Source of the DNA: an uncultured Verrucomicrobia subdivision 3 bacterium
GTDB taxonomy: Bacteria; Verrucomicrobiota; Verrucomicrobiia; Limisphaerales; UBA11358
Direction of reading: 5' to 3'
NCBI GenBank assembly: GCA_903850425.1
Contig: CAINLR010000137.1
Coordinates: 1 to 52,148, forward strand
Length of the DNA stretch: 52,148 nucleotides
Shown here: positions 10,669 to 41,785 of the stretch, one piece after another
Layout of the letters: every line of letters starts with the position of its first letter
Position numbering within the stretch: position 1 is the stretch's first letter
Notes under the pieces: generated by a model
The model's input: the letters and a program-made list of their open reading frames with translations, nothing else
Told to the model about the DNA's origin: nothing
Database searches by the model: none
Program-made: the position numbers and the translations under genes

Positions 10669-10767
10669 AAACATTCAACAACCAACATTCAAAGCCGAAC
10701 GTCCAACCGCATCCGCCGCGCAAAATCCCTGAGCGTTGTTTGTTCAATGTTGGTTGTTGAATGTTTT
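10669..10767. repeat. AACATTCAAC-family palindromic repeat, copy 1
   Basis: Long inverted repeat between kdsA and kdsC. The left arm starts AAACATTCAACAACCAACAT at 10669 and the right arm 10742-10767 is its reverse complement over at least 20 bp, with a GC-rich centre of about 50 bp. It shares arm vocabulary (AACATTCAAC, TTGAATGTT) with the copies at 16960 and 41690. An RNA hairpin here could separate kdsA from the downstream operon genes. Confidence 0.9.
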
Positions 10768-11628: not shown

Positions 11629-12795
11629 TCAAACAAACGGTAATTCCACAATTTTCGCCAACCCCTCGCCGGCCGCCGTTCGCAACGTCAGTTCGTTGCC
11701 AATTTGATTCGCTTCGCGGCGCACATAGCCGAGGGCGATCTGGGCGTCAAGCGTTGGCGATTTCACCGCGCTAGTCACATGGCCGACTTCCTTGTCCGCA
11801 TGAAACAGTTTGTCGCCGCGCTGCGGCAATACGTTCAAATCATTGGTCAGGCGCAAGCCACGCAGTTCGCGATTCACATGGCCGACGCTGTGGATGCGAT
11901 TGATGACCTCCTGCCCGAGGTAGCAGCCTTTGTTGTAAGTCACCGCCCGGCTCTCGATGCCGCATTCGAGCGGAAGGTTGGACGCATCCATGTCTGCGCC
12001 AAACCGCGGAATGCCCGCCTCAATGCGCGCGGTCTCGAACGCCTGCCAGCCGACGGCGCGTCCACCGATTTGTTTGGCAGCGGCAATCAATTTATCCGCC
12101 ACCGCGCCGAGCGAATGGTTCGGGACGAATAAATCGAAGCCAGCATTTGCAGAATGGTAGGAGACGACGTGAGGAGTCTCTAAATTTTCCTTAGTTTGAG
12201 TCTCGTCACCTCGACTCCTACAAGCGCCGACTCGCGCATGGTTCATTAGATAAACCTCGCCCAGTGTGGCGTCAGAAATTTTGACTGAACCAAATGCCTT
12301 GGCTGGAATTTCAGTGAATAGCCCGAGCGCACGCACAGCCTCCGCCGCCTTCGGCCCCTGCACGCTCAACAACCCGTAGTGCGGTGCCGCATCCACAATT
12401 TGCACGTCATCGGCGACGATGAATTTTTCCAGCCGCGGTGAAATTTTTTCAGCCAGCCCCGGCTCGAAGTCCAAAAGCAATTCGTCGGTCAGCGCAAAAA
12501 TGTTCAGGTCGCTTTCCATTTTCGCTTTCGCAGTGGTGATGGCGGCATAGCAGCCTTCGCCGACGCGCAGCTTCTTCACGTCGTTCGTCACCTGCCCGTG
12601 CAGATATCGTGCGCGGTCGGCCCCGATCAGACAGAGGCGCGAACGAAAACTCAAATCAATGACGCCCGCCAATGCCTGCAAGGCAGCGTGCTCGGCCAGC
12701 CAGTCGCCGTAGTCGTTCACGATCTGGGCGCCGCTCAATTCCGCGAACCGCGCGCCGAGACCGTGGTGAAATGCTTGCAAGTTAAGTGGGTTCAT
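11629..12795 (-). CDS. ygfZ: YgfZ/GcvT-family folate-binding protein with an in-frame repeat insertion
   Basis: A 388-aa protein of the YgfZ family, which uses tetrahydrofolate and helps maintain certain iron-sulfur proteins. The family signature KGCYLGQEVINRI is present, as are LHGQVTNDV near residue 65 and GFDLFVP. Between VYLMNHARVG and NAGFDLFVP, where relatives have a short loop, residues about 192-213 (CRSRGDETQTKENLETPHVV) are encoded by a palindromic repeat (12157-12221) of a family otherwise found between genes. The frame stays open. The ATG at 12795 is preferred over a TTG three codons earlier. It is 46 bp upstream of kdsA on the same strand. Confidence 0.92.
   Translation of the reverse strand: MNPLNLQAFHHGLGARFAELSGAQIVNDYGDWLAEHAALQALAGVIDLSFRSRLCLIGADRARYLHGQVTNDVKKLRVGEGCYAAITTAKAKMESDLNIFALTDELLLDFEPGLAEKISPRLEKFIVADDVQIVDAAPHYGLLSVQGPKAAEAVRALGLFTEIPAKAFGSVKISDATLGEVYLMNHARVGACRSRGDETQTKENLETPHVVSYHSANAGFDLFVPNHSLGAVADKLIAAAKQIGGRAVGWQAFETARIEAGIPRFGADMDASNLPLECGIESRAVTYNKGCYLGQEVINRIHSVGHVNRELRGLRLTNDLNVLPQRGDKLFHADKEVGHVTSAVKSPTLDAQIALGYVRREANQIGNELTLRTAAGEGLAKIVELPFV
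12157..12221. repeat. GTAGCAGCCGA-family palindrome inside ygfZ
   Basis: Left arm GTAGGAGACGACGTGAGGAG at 12157, right arm ending CACCTCGACTCCTAC at 12221, centre AT-rich. It matches the intergenic copies at 14114-14184 and 18102-18163 in length, arm sequence and TCTC/GAGTCTC shoulder. It sits wholly inside the ygfZ coding sequence and is read through in frame. Confidence 0.88.
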
Positions 12796-12879
12796 TGCTG
12801 GCAAAATAATGTCAGTGATTAGGGCCAGTGCAAAATGGAATCGAATTGCCTCACGCGGTTTTAATTGTAAAATCAGCGG

Positions 12880-14103
12880 ATGAATTTAGATGAACTTTAT
12901 TCGGAACTGACGCTTAAAACGAAAACGAAGCACGTCCTGGTCGTGCTTGACGGCCTCGGCGATATCGCCACCAAGGAACAGAACTATCTCACCCCGCTCG
13001 AAGCCGCGCACACGCCCAACCTCGACGCGCTTGCAAAGGACTCCGCCCAGGGCCGCATGATTCCCGTGGCGCCCGGCATCACACCCGGCAGCGGTCCCGG
13101 CCATCTCGGCTTGTTCGGCTACGATCCCCTCGAATTTCAGGTCGGCCGCGGCGTCATCGAAGCGCTCGGGCTCGGGCTGGAATTGCAGCCCGGCGACGTT
13201 TGCGCCCGCGCCAACTTCGCGACGCTCGACGCCAAAGGCATTGTCACCGACCGCCGCGCCGGCCGCATCCCGACCGAGACGTGCGAAAAAATGGTGGCTT
13301 TGCTCACAGCCAAGATTAAGAAGATCGGTGACACCCAGGTCATCATCAAGGCCGGCAAAGAACATCGCTTCGTCGTCGTGTTCCGTGGCCAAGGCTTGGA
13401 AGGACCGCTGACGGACGCCGATCCGAACCGCGAAGGCTTTGCGATTCCGGCCGTGAAACCGCGCGATCCGAAAAATGCGAAGCAGAAAAAAATGGCGAAG
13501 CTCATCGCGGATTTTTACCAGCTCGCGCTGCCCATTCTCGCCAAGCAAAAACCGGCGAACGGCTTTCTCATGCGCGGCATCGCGCATCAGCCGCACATTC
13601 CGCTGTTCGCAGATCGCTATCTGCTCAAGCCCGCGTGCCTCGCGGTTTATCCGATGTATAAAGGTCTCGCGCAGCTCGTCGGCATGGTGAAGATCGAAGG
13701 CCCGCAGACCATCGCCGAGCAGTTTGAGCGCTACCTGAAGGAATACGACAACTACGATTTCTTCTTCATCCATTACAAATACACCGACAAATACGGTGAA
13801 GACGGCAACTTCGCCGCCAAGCAAAAAGCCATCGAGGAATTTGACGCCGCGCTGCCGATTCTCCTGAAGAAGAAGCCGGATGTGCTCGCGGTCACAGGCG
13901 ACCACTCGACGCCGTGCGCGTTGCATGGTCATTCGTGGCATCCGCAGCCGGTGATGATTCACTCCGCCACGAGCGGCTCGGACAAGCTGGACCGTTTCAC
14001 CGAGACCGGCGCGAACAGCGGTTCGCTTGGCATCTTCCCCGCGAAATTCATGATCCGCCTCATGCAGGCGAACGCGAAGATGTTCGACAAGTTCGGCGCT
14101 TAA
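12880..14103 (+). CDS. apgM: 2,3-bisphosphoglycerate-independent phosphoglycerate mutase, archaeal type
   Basis: A 407-aa alkaline-phosphatase-superfamily enzyme interconverting 3- and 2-phosphoglycerate in glycolysis. The metal motif VLVVLDGLGD (residues 19-28) and the nucleophile loop APGITPGSGPGHLGLFGYDP with Ser71 are typical of ApgM rather than of the longer bacterial GpmI. FFFIHYKYTDKYGEDGNF and LAVTGDHSTPCALHGHSWHP supply the remaining metal ligands. It is divergent from ygfZ, with only about 84 bp between them, and is followed by a perfect palindromic repeat and pgsA. Confidence 0.95.
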   Translation: MNLDELYSELTLKTKTKHVLVVLDGLGDIATKEQNYLTPLEAAHTPNLDALAKDSAQGRMIPVAPGITPGSGPGHLGLFGYDPLEFQVGRGVIEALGLGLELQPGDVCARANFATLDAKGIVTDRRAGRIPTETCEKMVALLTAKIKKIGDTQVIIKAGKEHRFVVVFRGQGLEGPLTDADPNREGFAIPAVKPRDPKNAKQKKMAKLIADFYQLALPILAKQKPANGFLMRGIAHQPHIPLFADRYLLKPACLAVYPMYKGLAQLVGMVKIEGPQTIAEQFERYLKEYDNYDFFFIHYKYTDKYGEDGNFAAKQKAIEEFDAALPILLKKKPDVLAVTGDHSTPCALHGHSWHPQPVMIHSATSGSDKLDRFTETGANSGSLGIFPAKFMIRLMQANAKMFDKFGA

Positions 14104-14113
14104 TTCAGTGTGC

Positions 14114-14184
14114 GTAGCAGCCGACGTGAGGAGGCTCAAACCATGTCCGAAATTTGAAGTGAGCCTCCTCACGTCGGCTGCTAC
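14114..14184. repeat. GTAGCAGCCGA-family palindromic repeat, best copy
   Basis: Perfect 25-bp inverted repeat: 14114-14138 (GTAGCAGCCGACGTGAGGAG...) and 14160-14184 (...CACGTCGGCTGCTAC), with a 21-bp spacer. It lies between apgM and pgsA, and could act as a hairpin or terminator although no T tract follows. This copy defines the family found inside ygfZ and at 18102. Confidence 0.95.
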
Positions 14185-14196
14185 AATTTTTAACAA

Positions 14197-14793
14197 ATGA
14201 ACCTGCCCAACAAGCTGACCGTCGCGCGCTTCGGACTGACGGTGGTTTTCCTCTGGGCGATGTTCTCCAAGTTCGCCTTCAATGACACGCTGGCGCTGAT
14301 TTTTTTCTGCCTGGCGGGCATCACGGATTTTCTCGACGGTCGCATCGCGCGCGCCCGCAAGCTCATCACCAACTTCGGCATTCTCATGGACCCGCTGGCG
14401 GACAAAATCATGACCTGCTCGGCGTTCGTGGCGTTCGTCGAAAGCACACACATGAACCCCAACGCGCCGGTGAAAGTTGCGGCCTGGATGGTCGTCGTCA
14501 TCGTCGGCCGTGAACTGGCCATCACCGGACTGCGCCTGCTGGCCGCGTCAAAGAGCATCATCCTCGCGGCGGAGCGCTTCGGGAAACACAAAACCGTTTC
14601 GCAGATCGTCACGATCATTGCGCTGCTGGTTGTGGACGCGTGTGAGGAATGGCCGGTGGCATTGAAGAATTTGCTCACGCCGTGGGTGCCGCCGTTTGCC
14701 GAAGGCATGTTGTGGCTCACCATCGTGCTGACGGCGGCCTCGGGCATCATCTATCTCTGGCGCAACCGGGCGTTGTATTTGGAGGACGTGTGA
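14197..14793 (+). CDS. pgsA: CDP-diacylglycerol-glycerol-3-phosphate 3-phosphatidyltransferase
   Basis: A 198-aa integral membrane enzyme making phosphatidylglycerol phosphate. The CDP-alcohol phosphatidyltransferase motif D-x2-DG-x2-AR-x8-G-x3-D-x3-D is complete in DFLDGRIARARK followed by NFGILMDPLADK. NLPNKLTVARFGLTVVFL opens the protein and VGRELAITGLRLLAASK follows, both typical of PgsA. It has about four to five TM segments. The start is 12 bp beyond the palindromic repeat, so its leader is essentially that repeat. Confidence 0.95.
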   Translation: MNLPNKLTVARFGLTVVFLWAMFSKFAFNDTLALIFFCLAGITDFLDGRIARARKLITNFGILMDPLADKIMTCSAFVAFVESTHMNPNAPVKVAAWMVVVIVGRELAITGLRLLAASKSIILAAERFGKHKTVSQIVTIIALLVVDACEEWPVALKNLLTPWVPPFAEGMLWLTIVLTAASGIIYLWRNRALYLEDV

Positions 14794-15572: not shown

Positions 15573-16952
15573 ATGGACTCCTGGAAAACCTGGCTTTGGC
15601 GAACCCTCATCACCACCGCCTGCCTCATCCTCGTCGCCGCCATTTTTTATGCGGAAGAAAACTCGCGCGGCCTCAACGCCTGGACCAAATGCGCCGGCGA
15701 CCTCACCGCGCGCGGTGAATCGCTGGCCTGGGCCGACTACATTCCGGCGCCGGTGCCCGACGCACAAAATTTCTACAAGGCGCCCAGGATGACCGAGTGG
15801 TTCGTGCGCTCCACCAATGTCATTCCCGCCTATCCCCCCAACCTCCTCCCGACATTCCATCCGGACACCAGTTCCAACGTCATCACCGAAATCACCGCAA
15901 GCAACTATCTGGCCTGGAGCGCGGCGTTCGAGCCAGGCTTTGACCTGATGCGCGAGGCGGTCAAGCGCCCGTTCGCGCGACTGGACGGTGATTACGCGCG
16001 CCCGTTCAAACGGCCCATCCCCAATTTTATCAGCCACCGCCTCGTGGCCCAGACCCTTGCCCATCGCGCCAAGTGCCATCTCCTGCTGGGCGCACCAGAT
16101 CTGGCGCTGGCCGACCTGACACTGCTCCATCAAGTGGCCCTGACCCTCGTGAAAAGCGGCCGGCCAAATACGATTATCGCCGCCATGATTCACTGCGCCA
16201 TCAGCGGCTTATACGCCGACGCCATCGCCTGTGGCATCGAATCGCATTCGTGGCGCGAGGCGGATTTGGCGACCTTGCAGCAACAACTCGCGGAAATCCA
16301 CTTACTGCCCGAAGTCGCCGATGCCTTCCGGGCCGAACGCGCGGGCACTTGTTTCATGCTCGATTCCATACCGCCGGCAGAATTGATGCATGTCATCAAC
16401 GGCTCGACCCGGCAGGTCTCCGACCTCGGCTGGTGGTTGATGCCGAGCGGCTGGATTCAACAAAACAAAACCGTCATCGCCACGCTGGAGGGAAAAGTCA
16501 TTGAATCCATGGACGCCGCTAGCAATGTGGTTTCGCCCTTCAAAGCCGTGGCCGCCGGTCGCGCCAGCGAGGCGGCGCTCCGACAGGTGACGCCGCTGAA
16601 CTTCATCGCCGCCATCGCCATTCCTAATTACACCAAGGCCACTGCCGCCATGGCGCGAAATCAGACCTGGGTGGATCAGGCGCAAATTGCGTGCGCGCTG
16701 GAGCGTTACCGGCTCGCCAACGGAAAATATCCCGCCGCCCTGGCCGCGCTGGCGCCCGCGTTCCTGGCCAAAATTCCGCCGGACATCATCGGCGGCAACC
16801 CCATGAAATATGTCTGCCAGGACGGAGAAAATTTTCAACTCTACTCGATCGGCTGGAACGAAGCGGACGATGGCGGTTACACCGCGCATTTGAGCACCGG
16901 CCAGGAGGATCGGGAAAACGGGGACTGGGTCTGGCATTATCCAACGCAGTGA
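15573..16952 (+). CDS. membrane-anchored protein with pseudopilin-like C-terminus (paralogue A)
   Basis: A 459-aa protein of unknown function. The N-terminal TM anchor (TLITTACLILVAAIFYAEEN) is followed by a conserved block around GESLAWADYIPAPVPDAQNF, a helical middle region, and a C-terminal segment like the end of GspG-type pseudopilins: CALERYRLANGKYPAALAAL, LAKIPPDIIGG, FQLYSIGWNEADDGG. The gene at 18176 has the same order of parts and clear similarity at both ends, so the two are paralogues. They flank an ECF sigma factor and its small membrane partner. I infer an envelope role; no catalytic motif is visible. Confidence 0.85.
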   Translation: MDSWKTWLWRTLITTACLILVAAIFYAEENSRGLNAWTKCAGDLTARGESLAWADYIPAPVPDAQNFYKAPRMTEWFVRSTNVIPAYPPNLLPTFHPDTSSNVITEITASNYLAWSAAFEPGFDLMREAVKRPFARLDGDYARPFKRPIPNFISHRLVAQTLAHRAKCHLLLGAPDLALADLTLLHQVALTLVKSGRPNTIIAAMIHCAISGLYADAIACGIESHSWREADLATLQQQLAEIHLLPEVADAFRAERAGTCFMLDSIPPAELMHVINGSTRQVSDLGWWLMPSGWIQQNKTVIATLEGKVIESMDAASNVVSPFKAVAAGRASEAALRQVTPLNFIAAIAIPNYTKATAAMARNQTWVDQAQIACALERYRLANGKYPAALAALAPAFLAKIPPDIIGGNPMKYVCQDGENFQLYSIGWNEADDGGYTAHLSTGQEDRENGDWVWHYPTQ

Positions 16953-16959
16953 TGTTTAA

Positions 16960-17064
16960 GAAACATTGAACCTTGAACACTTAACACCCAACCTCCAGCG
17001 GTTCACGCGCGCGCGTCAGTGGATGTTGAATATTCAATGTTGAGTGTTGAATGTTGAATGTTGT
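16960..17064. repeat. AACATTCAAC-family palindromic repeat, copy 2
   Basis: Left arm AAACATTGAACCTTGAACAC at 16961, right arm 17022-17063 rich in GTTGAATGTTGA units, GC-rich centre with GCGCGCGCG. It lies between paralogue A and the ECF sigma gene, and its right arm is just upstream of the sigma factor's likely promoter and start. Confidence 0.85.
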
Positions 17065-17117
17065 TGTTTTTATTTTAATTGAACCTTTGCTCGCCTCGCG
17101 CATTCCTCTTGTTGAAC

Positions 17118-18101: not shown

Positions 18102-18163
18102 GCAGCAGCCGACGTGAGGAAGCTCAAACGATTAGTCAGAACCTCGTTACCTCGGCTGCTACC
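18102..18163. repeat. GTAGCAGCCGA-family palindromic repeat
   Basis: Left arm GCAGCAGCCGACGTGAGGAA, right arm ending CTCGTTACCTCGGCTGCTAC. It matches the 14114-14184 element in arm sequence and length. It fills the gap between the putative anti-sigma gene and paralogue B, so paralogue B's leader is mostly this hairpin. Confidence 0.92.
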
Positions 18164-18175
18164 AACAAAAACGAT

Positions 18176-19726
18176 ATGAATGATAAACCTAAAACCAAAT
18201 GGCTCTGGCGGCTGCTGCGCTGGGGATTAATTGGAATGGCCGGCCTCGTCACGCTGGCCGCCATGCTCGTGACGGAAGAAAACTGGCGCGGCAAGCACGC
18301 GTGGGAAACTTACAAGCGCGCAGCCGAGGCGAGGGGCGAACGATTAGATTGGACGGCCTTCACGCCGACCAACGTGCCGGACGACCAAAATTTCTTCTAC
18401 GCACCGATCGTGGCCGAGACGTTGCAGGCGGAACGCAACGAGCGCGCGGACGGCCAAGCGCCGCACGCCACGAATACGGCCAACCGCATGAAATTTGACA
18501 TTTACTGCGGCGATTCCGAACTCTTGCCAAAACATGGAGGCAACTGGCAAAAGGGTGAGTTTACCGAGTTGAAGGAATGGCCCGCCTACTTCCAGACTTG
18601 CTCCACGACGTTCGAAGGGAAGACCAACCACTTTCCGGTCGCCGCTCAACCGCAGTCCCCCGCCGCCGATGTGTTGCTGGCGTTGAGCATTTTCAATCCG
18701 GCACTGGAAGAACTGCGTCAGGCAAGCCTGCGTCCCACGGCCTGGATGCCGCTGAATTACGGCAACGGCTTTGAGGAAGTCGGCACGCTGCTGCCCTGGC
18801 TTCGCCCGGCGAAGCGCTGGGCCAGTTTTTTGCAATTGCGTAGCGTCGCCGAGTTGCAGGATAACCAAAGCGCGGCGGCGTTGGCCGACGTGAAGCTGCT
18901 CCTGCGTCTCACCGATACCATGCGCAATCAGCCGTTTCTGATCTCGCATCTCGTGCGCATCGCCATGCAAGCCATCGCGCTCCAGCCGATCTACGAGGGT
19001 CTGGCGCAACACCGCTGGAACGACACGCAACTCGCGGACCTTGAGGCCGCGCTCGCCGAGAAGGATTATCTGGCCGACTTCCAACTCGCGATGCGCGGCG
19101 AACGCACCTGTGCCATCTACACCTTCGAGACCCAGCGCCGCACTCGGGAAATGAAATCCTATGCGGCGGAGAACGGCCTGGATCAAATGGTCACCAACAG
19201 CCTGCGCTGGATGCCGAGCGCGTTCTTCTACCAGAACGAATTCGTCTTCGCGCAGATGTATGAACAGTTCGTGCTGCCACTGGTGGACCTCACCAACCGC
19301 ACGGTATCGCTCGCCGCCTACCGCACCACCGAGGCGGACTTCAAGGAACAAGCCCAACACTGGTCGCTCTACAAAATCCAGGCCCGGATGCTCTTTCCCG
19401 CCGTCGGCAAGAGCGTGGCGAAGTTTGCCACGATCCAGGCGCAGGTGGATTTGGCCCGCGTGGCGTGTGCTTTGGAACGCTTCCGCCTGACGCATGGAAA
19501 TTATCCTGAAGCCCTCGCCGCCCTCGCGCCGCAGTTCATCGCCGAACCGCCGCACGACCTCATCAATGGCCAGCCGCTGCACTATCGCCGCACGGACGAC
19601 GGAAAATTTGTCCTCTATTCTATCGGCTGGGATGAAAAGGACGATGGCGGGAAAGTCGTCCTCACCAAAAACGGCACGGTGGACCGTGAAAAGGGCGACT
19701 GGGTCTGGCAGTATCCGGCGAAGTAA
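18176..19726 (+). CDS. membrane-anchored protein with pseudopilin-like C-terminus (paralogue B)
   Basis: A 516-aa protein. TM anchor LIGMAGLVTLAAMLVTEENW, then RGERLDWTAFTPTNVPDDQNF, matching paralogue A block for block. The C-terminus ALERFRLTHGNYPEALAAL, FIAEPPHDLINGQPLHYRR, FVLYSIGWDEKDDGG is the GspG-like tail. It is about 57 residues longer than A, mainly in the first third. There is no recognised enzyme domain. Placement directly after the sigma/anti-sigma pair suggests that it belongs to the same regulon, perhaps autoregulated. Confidence 0.85.
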   Translation: MNDKPKTKWLWRLLRWGLIGMAGLVTLAAMLVTEENWRGKHAWETYKRAAEARGERLDWTAFTPTNVPDDQNFFYAPIVAETLQAERNERADGQAPHATNTANRMKFDIYCGDSELLPKHGGNWQKGEFTELKEWPAYFQTCSTTFEGKTNHFPVAAQPQSPAADVLLALSIFNPALEELRQASLRPTAWMPLNYGNGFEEVGTLLPWLRPAKRWASFLQLRSVAELQDNQSAAALADVKLLLRLTDTMRNQPFLISHLVRIAMQAIALQPIYEGLAQHRWNDTQLADLEAALAEKDYLADFQLAMRGERTCAIYTFETQRRTREMKSYAAENGLDQMVTNSLRWMPSAFFYQNEFVFAQMYEQFVLPLVDLTNRTVSLAAYRTTEADFKEQAQHWSLYKIQARMLFPAVGKSVAKFATIQAQVDLARVACALERFRLTHGNYPEALAALAPQFIAEPPHDLINGQPLHYRRTDDGKFVLYSIGWDEKDDGGKVVLTKNGTVDREKGDWVWQYPAK

Positions 19727-41689: not shown

Positions 41690-41785
41690 AACATTCAACT
41701 TTCAACATTCAACGCCGAACATCGAACGGCGCGGCGCTGCGGGGCAATCGGACTTTGGGCGTTGAATGTTCAATGTTCAATGTTT
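41690..41785. repeat. AACATTCAAC-family palindromic repeat, copy 3, overlapping a gene start
   Basis: Left arm AACATTCAACTTTCAACATT from 41690 and right arm GTTGAATGTTCAATGTTCAA to 41785, with AACGCC/GGCGTT pairing inside and a GC-rich centre. The ATG of the right arm at 41780-41782 is the best start codon of the downstream secreted gene. Confidence 0.9.

Follow-up and report, generated by a model that had tools for sequence, protein, structure and literature searches.

Palindromic repeats of several families lie in frame at the same protein loops in a genus of Verrucomicrobia

INTRODUCTION

The closest described relatives of the repeats considered here are the GTAG REPs, surveyed in 2013 in a study presumably by Di Nocera et al. 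whose species include O. terrae, by which we take Opitutus terrae to be meant. The accessible text of that survey gives 24 GTAG consensus sequences and reports intragenic GTAG REPs, the largest number being that of O. terrae, a species assigned there to Verrucomicrobia (PMC3733652). Over all species together, dimers or groups that encode 20-30 residues account for more than half of the intragenic REP inserts; the uvrA genes of O. terrae hold double REP inserts, and two Xanthomonas species carry different REPs near the same recB site (PMC3733652). Flexible linkers and loops were already suggested as the reason why such insertions might be neutral, and RPE-4 and RPE-6 are said to correspond to CGTC-tagged repeats (PMC3733652). 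For RPEs, known from Rickettsia, published lengths are 105-146 bp and about 150 bp (PMC2229807, PMC10969869), and REPINs have been described from extragenic space (PMC3116915).

We analysed a stretch of 52,148 nucleotides from an uncultured Verrucomicrobia subdivision 3 bacterium (hereafter the window), in which a palindrome lies inside ygfZ. The repeat family to which it belongs (family 1) resembles the GTAG REPs of the 2013 survey in its GTAG tag, small stem-loop, head-to-head doublets and mostly intergenic location with an intragenic share, and also in its inserts of 20-30 residues, its DNA repair and helicase hosts and its phylum (PMC3733652). The difference lies in scope: orthologues are followed here across a genus, and loops in three genes are filled by many families with turnover, whereas the survey, in its accessible text, has one smaller case, recB in Xanthomonas (PMC3733652). 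A preliminary description of this DNA had likened the palindrome to RPEs and knew of no equivalent in the lineage. The likeness holds for the behaviour, a palindromic repeat in frame in a conserved protein gene and apparently tolerated there, but not for the anatomy, since the ygfZ element is a 65-bp GTAG-tagged REP doublet from Verrucomicrobia and RPEs are longer elements (105-150 bp) from Rickettsia; the intragenic GTAG REPs reported in O. terrae (PMC3733652) overturn the second statement. With REPIN/RAYT systems (PMC3116915, PMC8266576) family 1 shares its unit, an inverted REP doublet with a spacer, but unlike them it is also intragenic, and no RAYT adjoins it at the loci read. A literature search weighted towards open access and made mostly at the level of abstracts did not find repeated, genus-wide filling of one loop by several families, and the word Verrucomicrobia is absent from the main text of RepRanger 2025 (PMC12306157). 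The earlier hint recurs here in a stronger form, different families having filled the same loops repeatedly.

RESULTS

A GTAG REP doublet lies in frame in ygfZ

The gene and the parts of its palindrome are as follows.

11632..12795, minus strand: ygfZ (CAF17/YgfZ-like, GcvT fold), 388 aa, starting at the ATG common to several orthologues
12157..12221, no strand assigned: GTAG REP doublet of family 1, 65 bp, about 22 loop residues in frame
12157..12180, plus strand: first GTAG-tagged hairpin half, GACGTGAGGA loop type
12198..12221, minus strand: second GTAG-tagged hairpin half, inverted, GAGGTGACGA loop type

The palindrome, which starts with GTAGGAG at 12157 and finishes with CTCCTAC at 12221, lies in frame within the minus-strand ORF 11629-12804 of the window's ORF list; sequence and ORF reading thus agree with the preliminary description on a 65-bp palindrome in frame inside ygfZ. 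It encodes residues 192-213 counted from the ATG at 12795, or 195-216 from an upstream TTG. The gene product matches the GCV_T and GCV_T_C domains and scores above the cut-off for TIGR03317, and by structure match its predicted fold resembles T-protein and E. coli YgfZ (1vly/1nrk). The two halves stand head-to-head with their tags outward, both beginning exactly with GTAG. Their 24-nt arms are identical at 20 of 24 positions, and because the four mismatches make up two compensated base pairs, each half still forms its own hairpin. An Rfam search of the window gave nothing above gathering thresholds.

Family 1 is dispersed in the genome, between genes and inside them

About 16% of the 6.89-Mb genome (1,123,348 bases) was searched with a profile that was made from the window's three copies and iterated once. 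This 1.12-Mb sample holds 31 elements of family 1, 26 of them at least 55 bp long. Allowing at most two mismatches, GACGTGAGGAGNCTC matches the genome 132 times, its reversed control 26 times; with at most three it matches the window 10 times, against 2.9 expected, and none of 100 shuffles reaches 10. The repeat is therefore dispersed, as had been expected, and the pattern counts against controls, together with the 31 dispersed copies, rule out that the ygfZ palindrome resembles the family by chance.

Both other window copies do fall between ORFs.

14114..14184, no strand assigned: family-1 doublet, intergenic, between an ORF end at 14103 and an ORF start at 14197
18102..18162, no strand assigned: family-1 doublet, intergenic, its first tag being GCAG

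The family as a whole is not otherwise intergenic, as had been supposed, because 9 of the 31 sampled copies are embedded in open frames whose sequence, to the left and right of the repeat, is coding-like in that same frame (coding calls were made from dicodon score and Pfam, using no annotation). The hosts are YgfZ, YbeY, a UvrD-type helicase, an HrpB-type helicase identified by Pfam HrpB_C, a protein with Pfam SMC_N that we take to be RecN, a GKRP-like SIS protein, an arabinosidase-like protein, a DUF6298 protein and a phage portal protein, whose copy is a single half.

The tag is exactly GTAG at the start of 36 of 54 halves, the remainder being mostly one change off. Stem pairs 7/20, 8/19 and 11/16 are kept in 52, 51 and 53 of the 54 halves, with several pair types, and pairs 5/22 and 6/21 are formed in 41 and 50; the inner pairs 9/18 and 10/17 are formed in only 12 and 11, the loop being larger there. 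Outer tags, a compensated stem-loop, outward doublets and many copies are thus all found in family 1, which in its anatomy is a head-to-head GTAG REP doublet (REPIN-like).

Counted over six frames, eight intragenic copies have a mean of 2.25 open frames and 18 others 2.28, with shuffles at 2.59 and 2.50. As intragenic and other copies are equally open, the element seems not to be built for translation; pre-adaptation for translation is unsupported, the shuffles being no lower. By orientation, 16 versus 11 of 36 frames are open in 12 copies. All five classifiable intragenic copies read the same arm first, a number too small for a claim of orientation bias.

One loop of YgfZ is empty or filled among relatives

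For other families of the order, 15 genomes were searched for YgfZ; four gave no such orthologue, and the 11 orthologues examined are all without the stretch. The genus set comprises 49 genomes. With a limit of E 1e-30, YgfZ was matched in 27 of them; since 22 have no such match, 10 of these among the 28 best genomes, ygfZ is often missing or divergent in the genus. The span from a conserved R to GFDLFVP is longer than 10 residues in 15 of the 27, four residues in 11 and seven in one, and the 15 filled loops are all stop-free. A further 80 named loci, less 25 duplicates of genus genomes, leave 55 and bring the total to 82 YgfZ sequences. Inserts of at least eight residues occur at this first loop in 22 of the 82, namely the 15 of the genus and 7 of the 55 named loci, at 51-71% identity; five occur at a second loop, after ALGLF (in five genomes), and three cases at two further sites. 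The gap anticipated in relatives is accordingly clean in the 11 orthologues of other families and in the 12 empty loops of the genus, but not in the seven filled named loci.

The filled loops of the genus form nine DNA clusters, six of them with copies elsewhere. Family 1 occupies four genomes (G000, which is that of the window, G010, G048 and G022), the GGTGGGGCGAGACTC family (family 2) three (G001, G018, where it is a half, and G023) and the GGAGCGCCGGC family (family 3) two (G004 and G021); other inserts are found in one genome each (G016, G052 and G024), and those of G050, G055 and G011 lack a demonstrated repeat family, that of G050 being like family 4 by eye. Peptides from different families look unrelated. 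KGCYxGQE is intact, its variable position aside, in 27 of 27 aligned YgfZ sequences, the filled ones included.

Outside the genus set, the first-loop inserts of L182, L184, L191, L202, L217, L225 and L229 are of further sequence types. At one of the further YgfZ sites G021 and G024 (L037, L042) have ten identical residues, GGLVAPKQSE, and the related LVTPKLQSEGG stands at another site in G021.

An ordinary length-variable loop, with a chance likeness to a repeat or an error of assembly, is a very improbable account of these observations. Loop length does vary, and the comparison uses draft genomes, including many metagenome bins; however, the 65-bp element agrees with the dispersed copies down to its hairpin pairs, family 1 stands at the identical site in three other genomes, and the families occur at scattered places in their carrier genomes.

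Families are abundant in most genomes that carry them

Family 2 has 40, 32 and 39 matches in its carriers G001, G018 and G023 (reversed control 0), against 1, 3 and 0 in the non-carriers G000, G010 and G048. A near relative of it lies at the second loop of G022 and G024, where 21 and 26 matches were counted (controls 0 or 1), in G022 partly in tandem arrays. For family 3 the carriers G021 and G004 give 37 and 16 matches (controls 10 and 2); G016, G055 and G011 are near background with 5, 8 and 8 (controls 8, 8 and 5), while G000 has 21 against 11 and G050 18 against 7. Family 4 gives 22 matches in G016, 33 in G050 and 17 in G000 (controls 0, 1 and 3), counts in which a site may appear twice, once per strand, because the pattern is near-palindromic; in G000 it has these 17 matches though another family occupies the YgfZ loop.

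The family-1 pattern has 70 matches in G000 against 5 for the control. Its median is 66 in the 12 genomes with family 1 at any of the three loops studied (in YgfZ, RecN and HrpB) and 13 in the remaining 37, of which some were examined at fewer than three loops (Mann-Whitney p 0.0003, relatedness ignored). Exceptions run both ways: G014 and G056 have family 1 in RecN yet only 4 and 5 matches, and G044 and G057 have 93 and 138 without family 1 at the loops examined.

RecN, HrpB and unselected genes

RecN was matched in 44 of the 49 genomes and examined in 42, HrpB in 46 and examined in 45. Of the 42 RecN orthologues, 25 have an insert of at least eight residues at one site; HrpB has two such sites, filled in 24 and 17 of its 45 orthologues; these rates are not unbiased, because both genes were picked for carrying the repeat in G000. 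YgfZ, RecN and HrpB have families in common, family 1 accounting for 21 of 93 clustered inserts.

Part of the filling in RecN and HrpB bears on the possibility that a DNA target preference is at work, with the ygfZ sequence or a hairpin favoured by REP transposition and protein tolerance secondary. The arrival of different families at the same YgfZ loop fits such a preference, and TnpA_REP enzymes are reported to cut at short sites such as CT (PMC8266576). The apparent starts of the elements, however, range from about 3 to 13 nt past the conserved Arg codon with differing flanking bases, and non-palindromic tandem micro-repeats fill RecN and HrpB loops in frame as well, so that we consider target preference unlikely. 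These micro-repeats are of the GATGGCA type at RecN site 415 in three species and of the AATCGGAA type at HrpB site 176 in five; in the second HrpB loop of G040 (L318) an in-frame tandem array with a unit of about 28 codons makes up most of 89 extra residues.

Two neighbours of ygfZ, whose names are our presumption, served as controls.

12880..14103, plus strand: ApgM-like neighbour gene, inserts of at least 9 aa in 0 of 23 orthologues
14197..14793, plus strand: PgsA-like neighbour gene, inserts of at least 9 aa in 0 of 22 orthologues

Three further neighbour clusters not chosen for inserts gave 0 of 15, 0 of 9 and 0 of 9, and one cluster of 10 sequences has six inserts of at least nine residues, weakly folding. 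Two unselected proteins also carry inserts. In what is presumably a phosphoglucomutase-like protein (30 of 42 examined) they occur in 3 of 30 at one site; in what we take to be a heavy-metal-ATPase-like protein (29 of 31 examined) they occur in 4 of 29 at adjoining sites, one peptide resembling family 1 by eye, and in 5 of 29 and 4 of 29 at two other sites, the C-terminus being variable in 18. Such rates in unselected genes (3 of 30, 4-5 of 29) mean that in-frame insertion is widespread in the genus, of which the YgfZ, RecN and HrpB loops are dense examples.

Loop states turn over between close relatives

A FastTree phylogeny was built from concatenated core columns of three proteins in 44 genomes, some inner nodes having support near 0. 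Loop states were mapped on 26, 41 and 42 tips for YgfZ, RecN and HrpB, unrelated single inserts sharing the label 'o' and inserts below 10 residues counting as empty. The YgfZ loop changes state 14 times on its 26 tips, against a mean of 13.5 and a minimum of 12 for shuffled labels. RecN has 17 changes (shuffled mean 19.6, minimum 15) and HrpB 19 (20.8 and 17); as these are somewhat fewer than in the shuffles, occupancy of RecN and HrpB may be partly inherited. G060, the sister of G000 on the tree, has an empty YgfZ loop where that of G000 is filled, and G021, G022 and G024, which cluster on the tree, have three different families there.

This turnover weighs on a further explanation, by which selection favours a disordered loop for its regulating or stabilising effect on the protein and any hydrophilic repeat suffices. 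Occupancy above 50% at three loops speaks for such a useful peptide, as does the near-universal presence of RecN (44 of 49) and HrpB (46 of 49) in the genus. Yet occupancy and family differ between sister species, peptides look unrelated across families, the turnover of YgfZ states matches that of shuffled labels, and the 11 orthologues from other families are all empty, though the seven filled named loci count on its side; we regard a selected peptide as decidedly unlikely.

The filled loop is predicted to be disordered

The AlphaFold2 model of the window's YgfZ, for which the alignment held 52 sequences (51 of the 80 locus proteins and the window's own), has a mean pLDDT of 87.8. Only two segments of at least three residues fall below pLDDT 50, namely 196-204 and 206-214; both are inside the insert, which the model places between strands 179-185 and 218-225. 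Confidence is only moderate (block means 63-71) for residues 271-310, where KGCYxGQE is found. The insert adds 26 residues to the four-residue turn of empty orthologues and precedes the conserved KGCYxGQE motif by about 75 residues in the sequence. The model points to an exposed, disordered hairpin loop.

Y1 transposases and other repeats

Y1_Tnp matches are present in 44 of the 49 genus genomes, three of them in G000, where one locus was read, the other two matches being weaker.

L361 1095-2129 (G000 contig C4), strand not given: NHFH-type Y1 transposase, 345 aa, family-1 flanks absent

Y1 transposase genes of G001 (two loci) and G021 have family-1 doublets in their vicinity, at a distance of about 0.8-1.2 kb. 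Two short Y1 transposase genes (L362 989-1465 and L379 946-1410) are flanked on either side by a different stem-loop repeat, CCCACGGTTGTCACCGTGGG / CCCACAGCTATCGCTGTGGG with CACTCCGTGGCTAA, an arrangement that looks like a REPtron of a different family.

The window also contains a low-complexity AACATTCAAC/GTTGAATGTT repeat at three sites (10670-10765, 16962-17069 and 41690-41784) and two similar proteins (15573-16952 and 18176-19726) with a common C-terminal motif, GDWVW.YP, the second of which is directly preceded by the family-1 element at 18102.

DISCUSSION

In our judgement it is probable that REP doublets insert widely in these genomes, that survival is limited to inserts which keep the frame and lie in a permissive loop, and that turnover is fast. 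A doublet would copy itself to new sites, probably as a single-stranded unit; the kind of family suggests a Y1 transposase of the RAYT/TnpA_REP type as the mover. Insertion would take place more or less anywhere, most insertions into genes presumably being lost, and those that keep the frame and fall in a tolerant loop would survive for a time. A loop filled by a family abundant in the species would then pass through decay or loss and be refilled, and the ygfZ insert would be translated as a disordered loop between two beta strands. Such a survival filter is supported by three observations: different repeats coincide at the same few loops, their insertion points differ, and intragenic and other copies are equally open.

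The neutrality of intragenic REP peptides has so far rested on scattered cases. Here, one YgfZ loop in one genus offers 15 occupied and 12 unoccupied natural alleles with several inserts, and neutrality, cost and turnover are therefore directly measurable. The same observations call for caution elsewhere, since a segment of 20-40 residues peculiar to one species' version of a verrucomicrobial protein may derive from a repeat instead of being functional. A broader reading, to which we give slightly better than even chances, is that a limited number of loops in this genus serve as a landing ground for mobile palindromes, emptied and refilled by the active family within the divergence of sister species, so that they record insertion tolerance and supply core enzymes of DNA repair and metabolism with new disordered peptides at a high rate. 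If it is true, the protein-coding genome would keep a running record of insertion tolerance.
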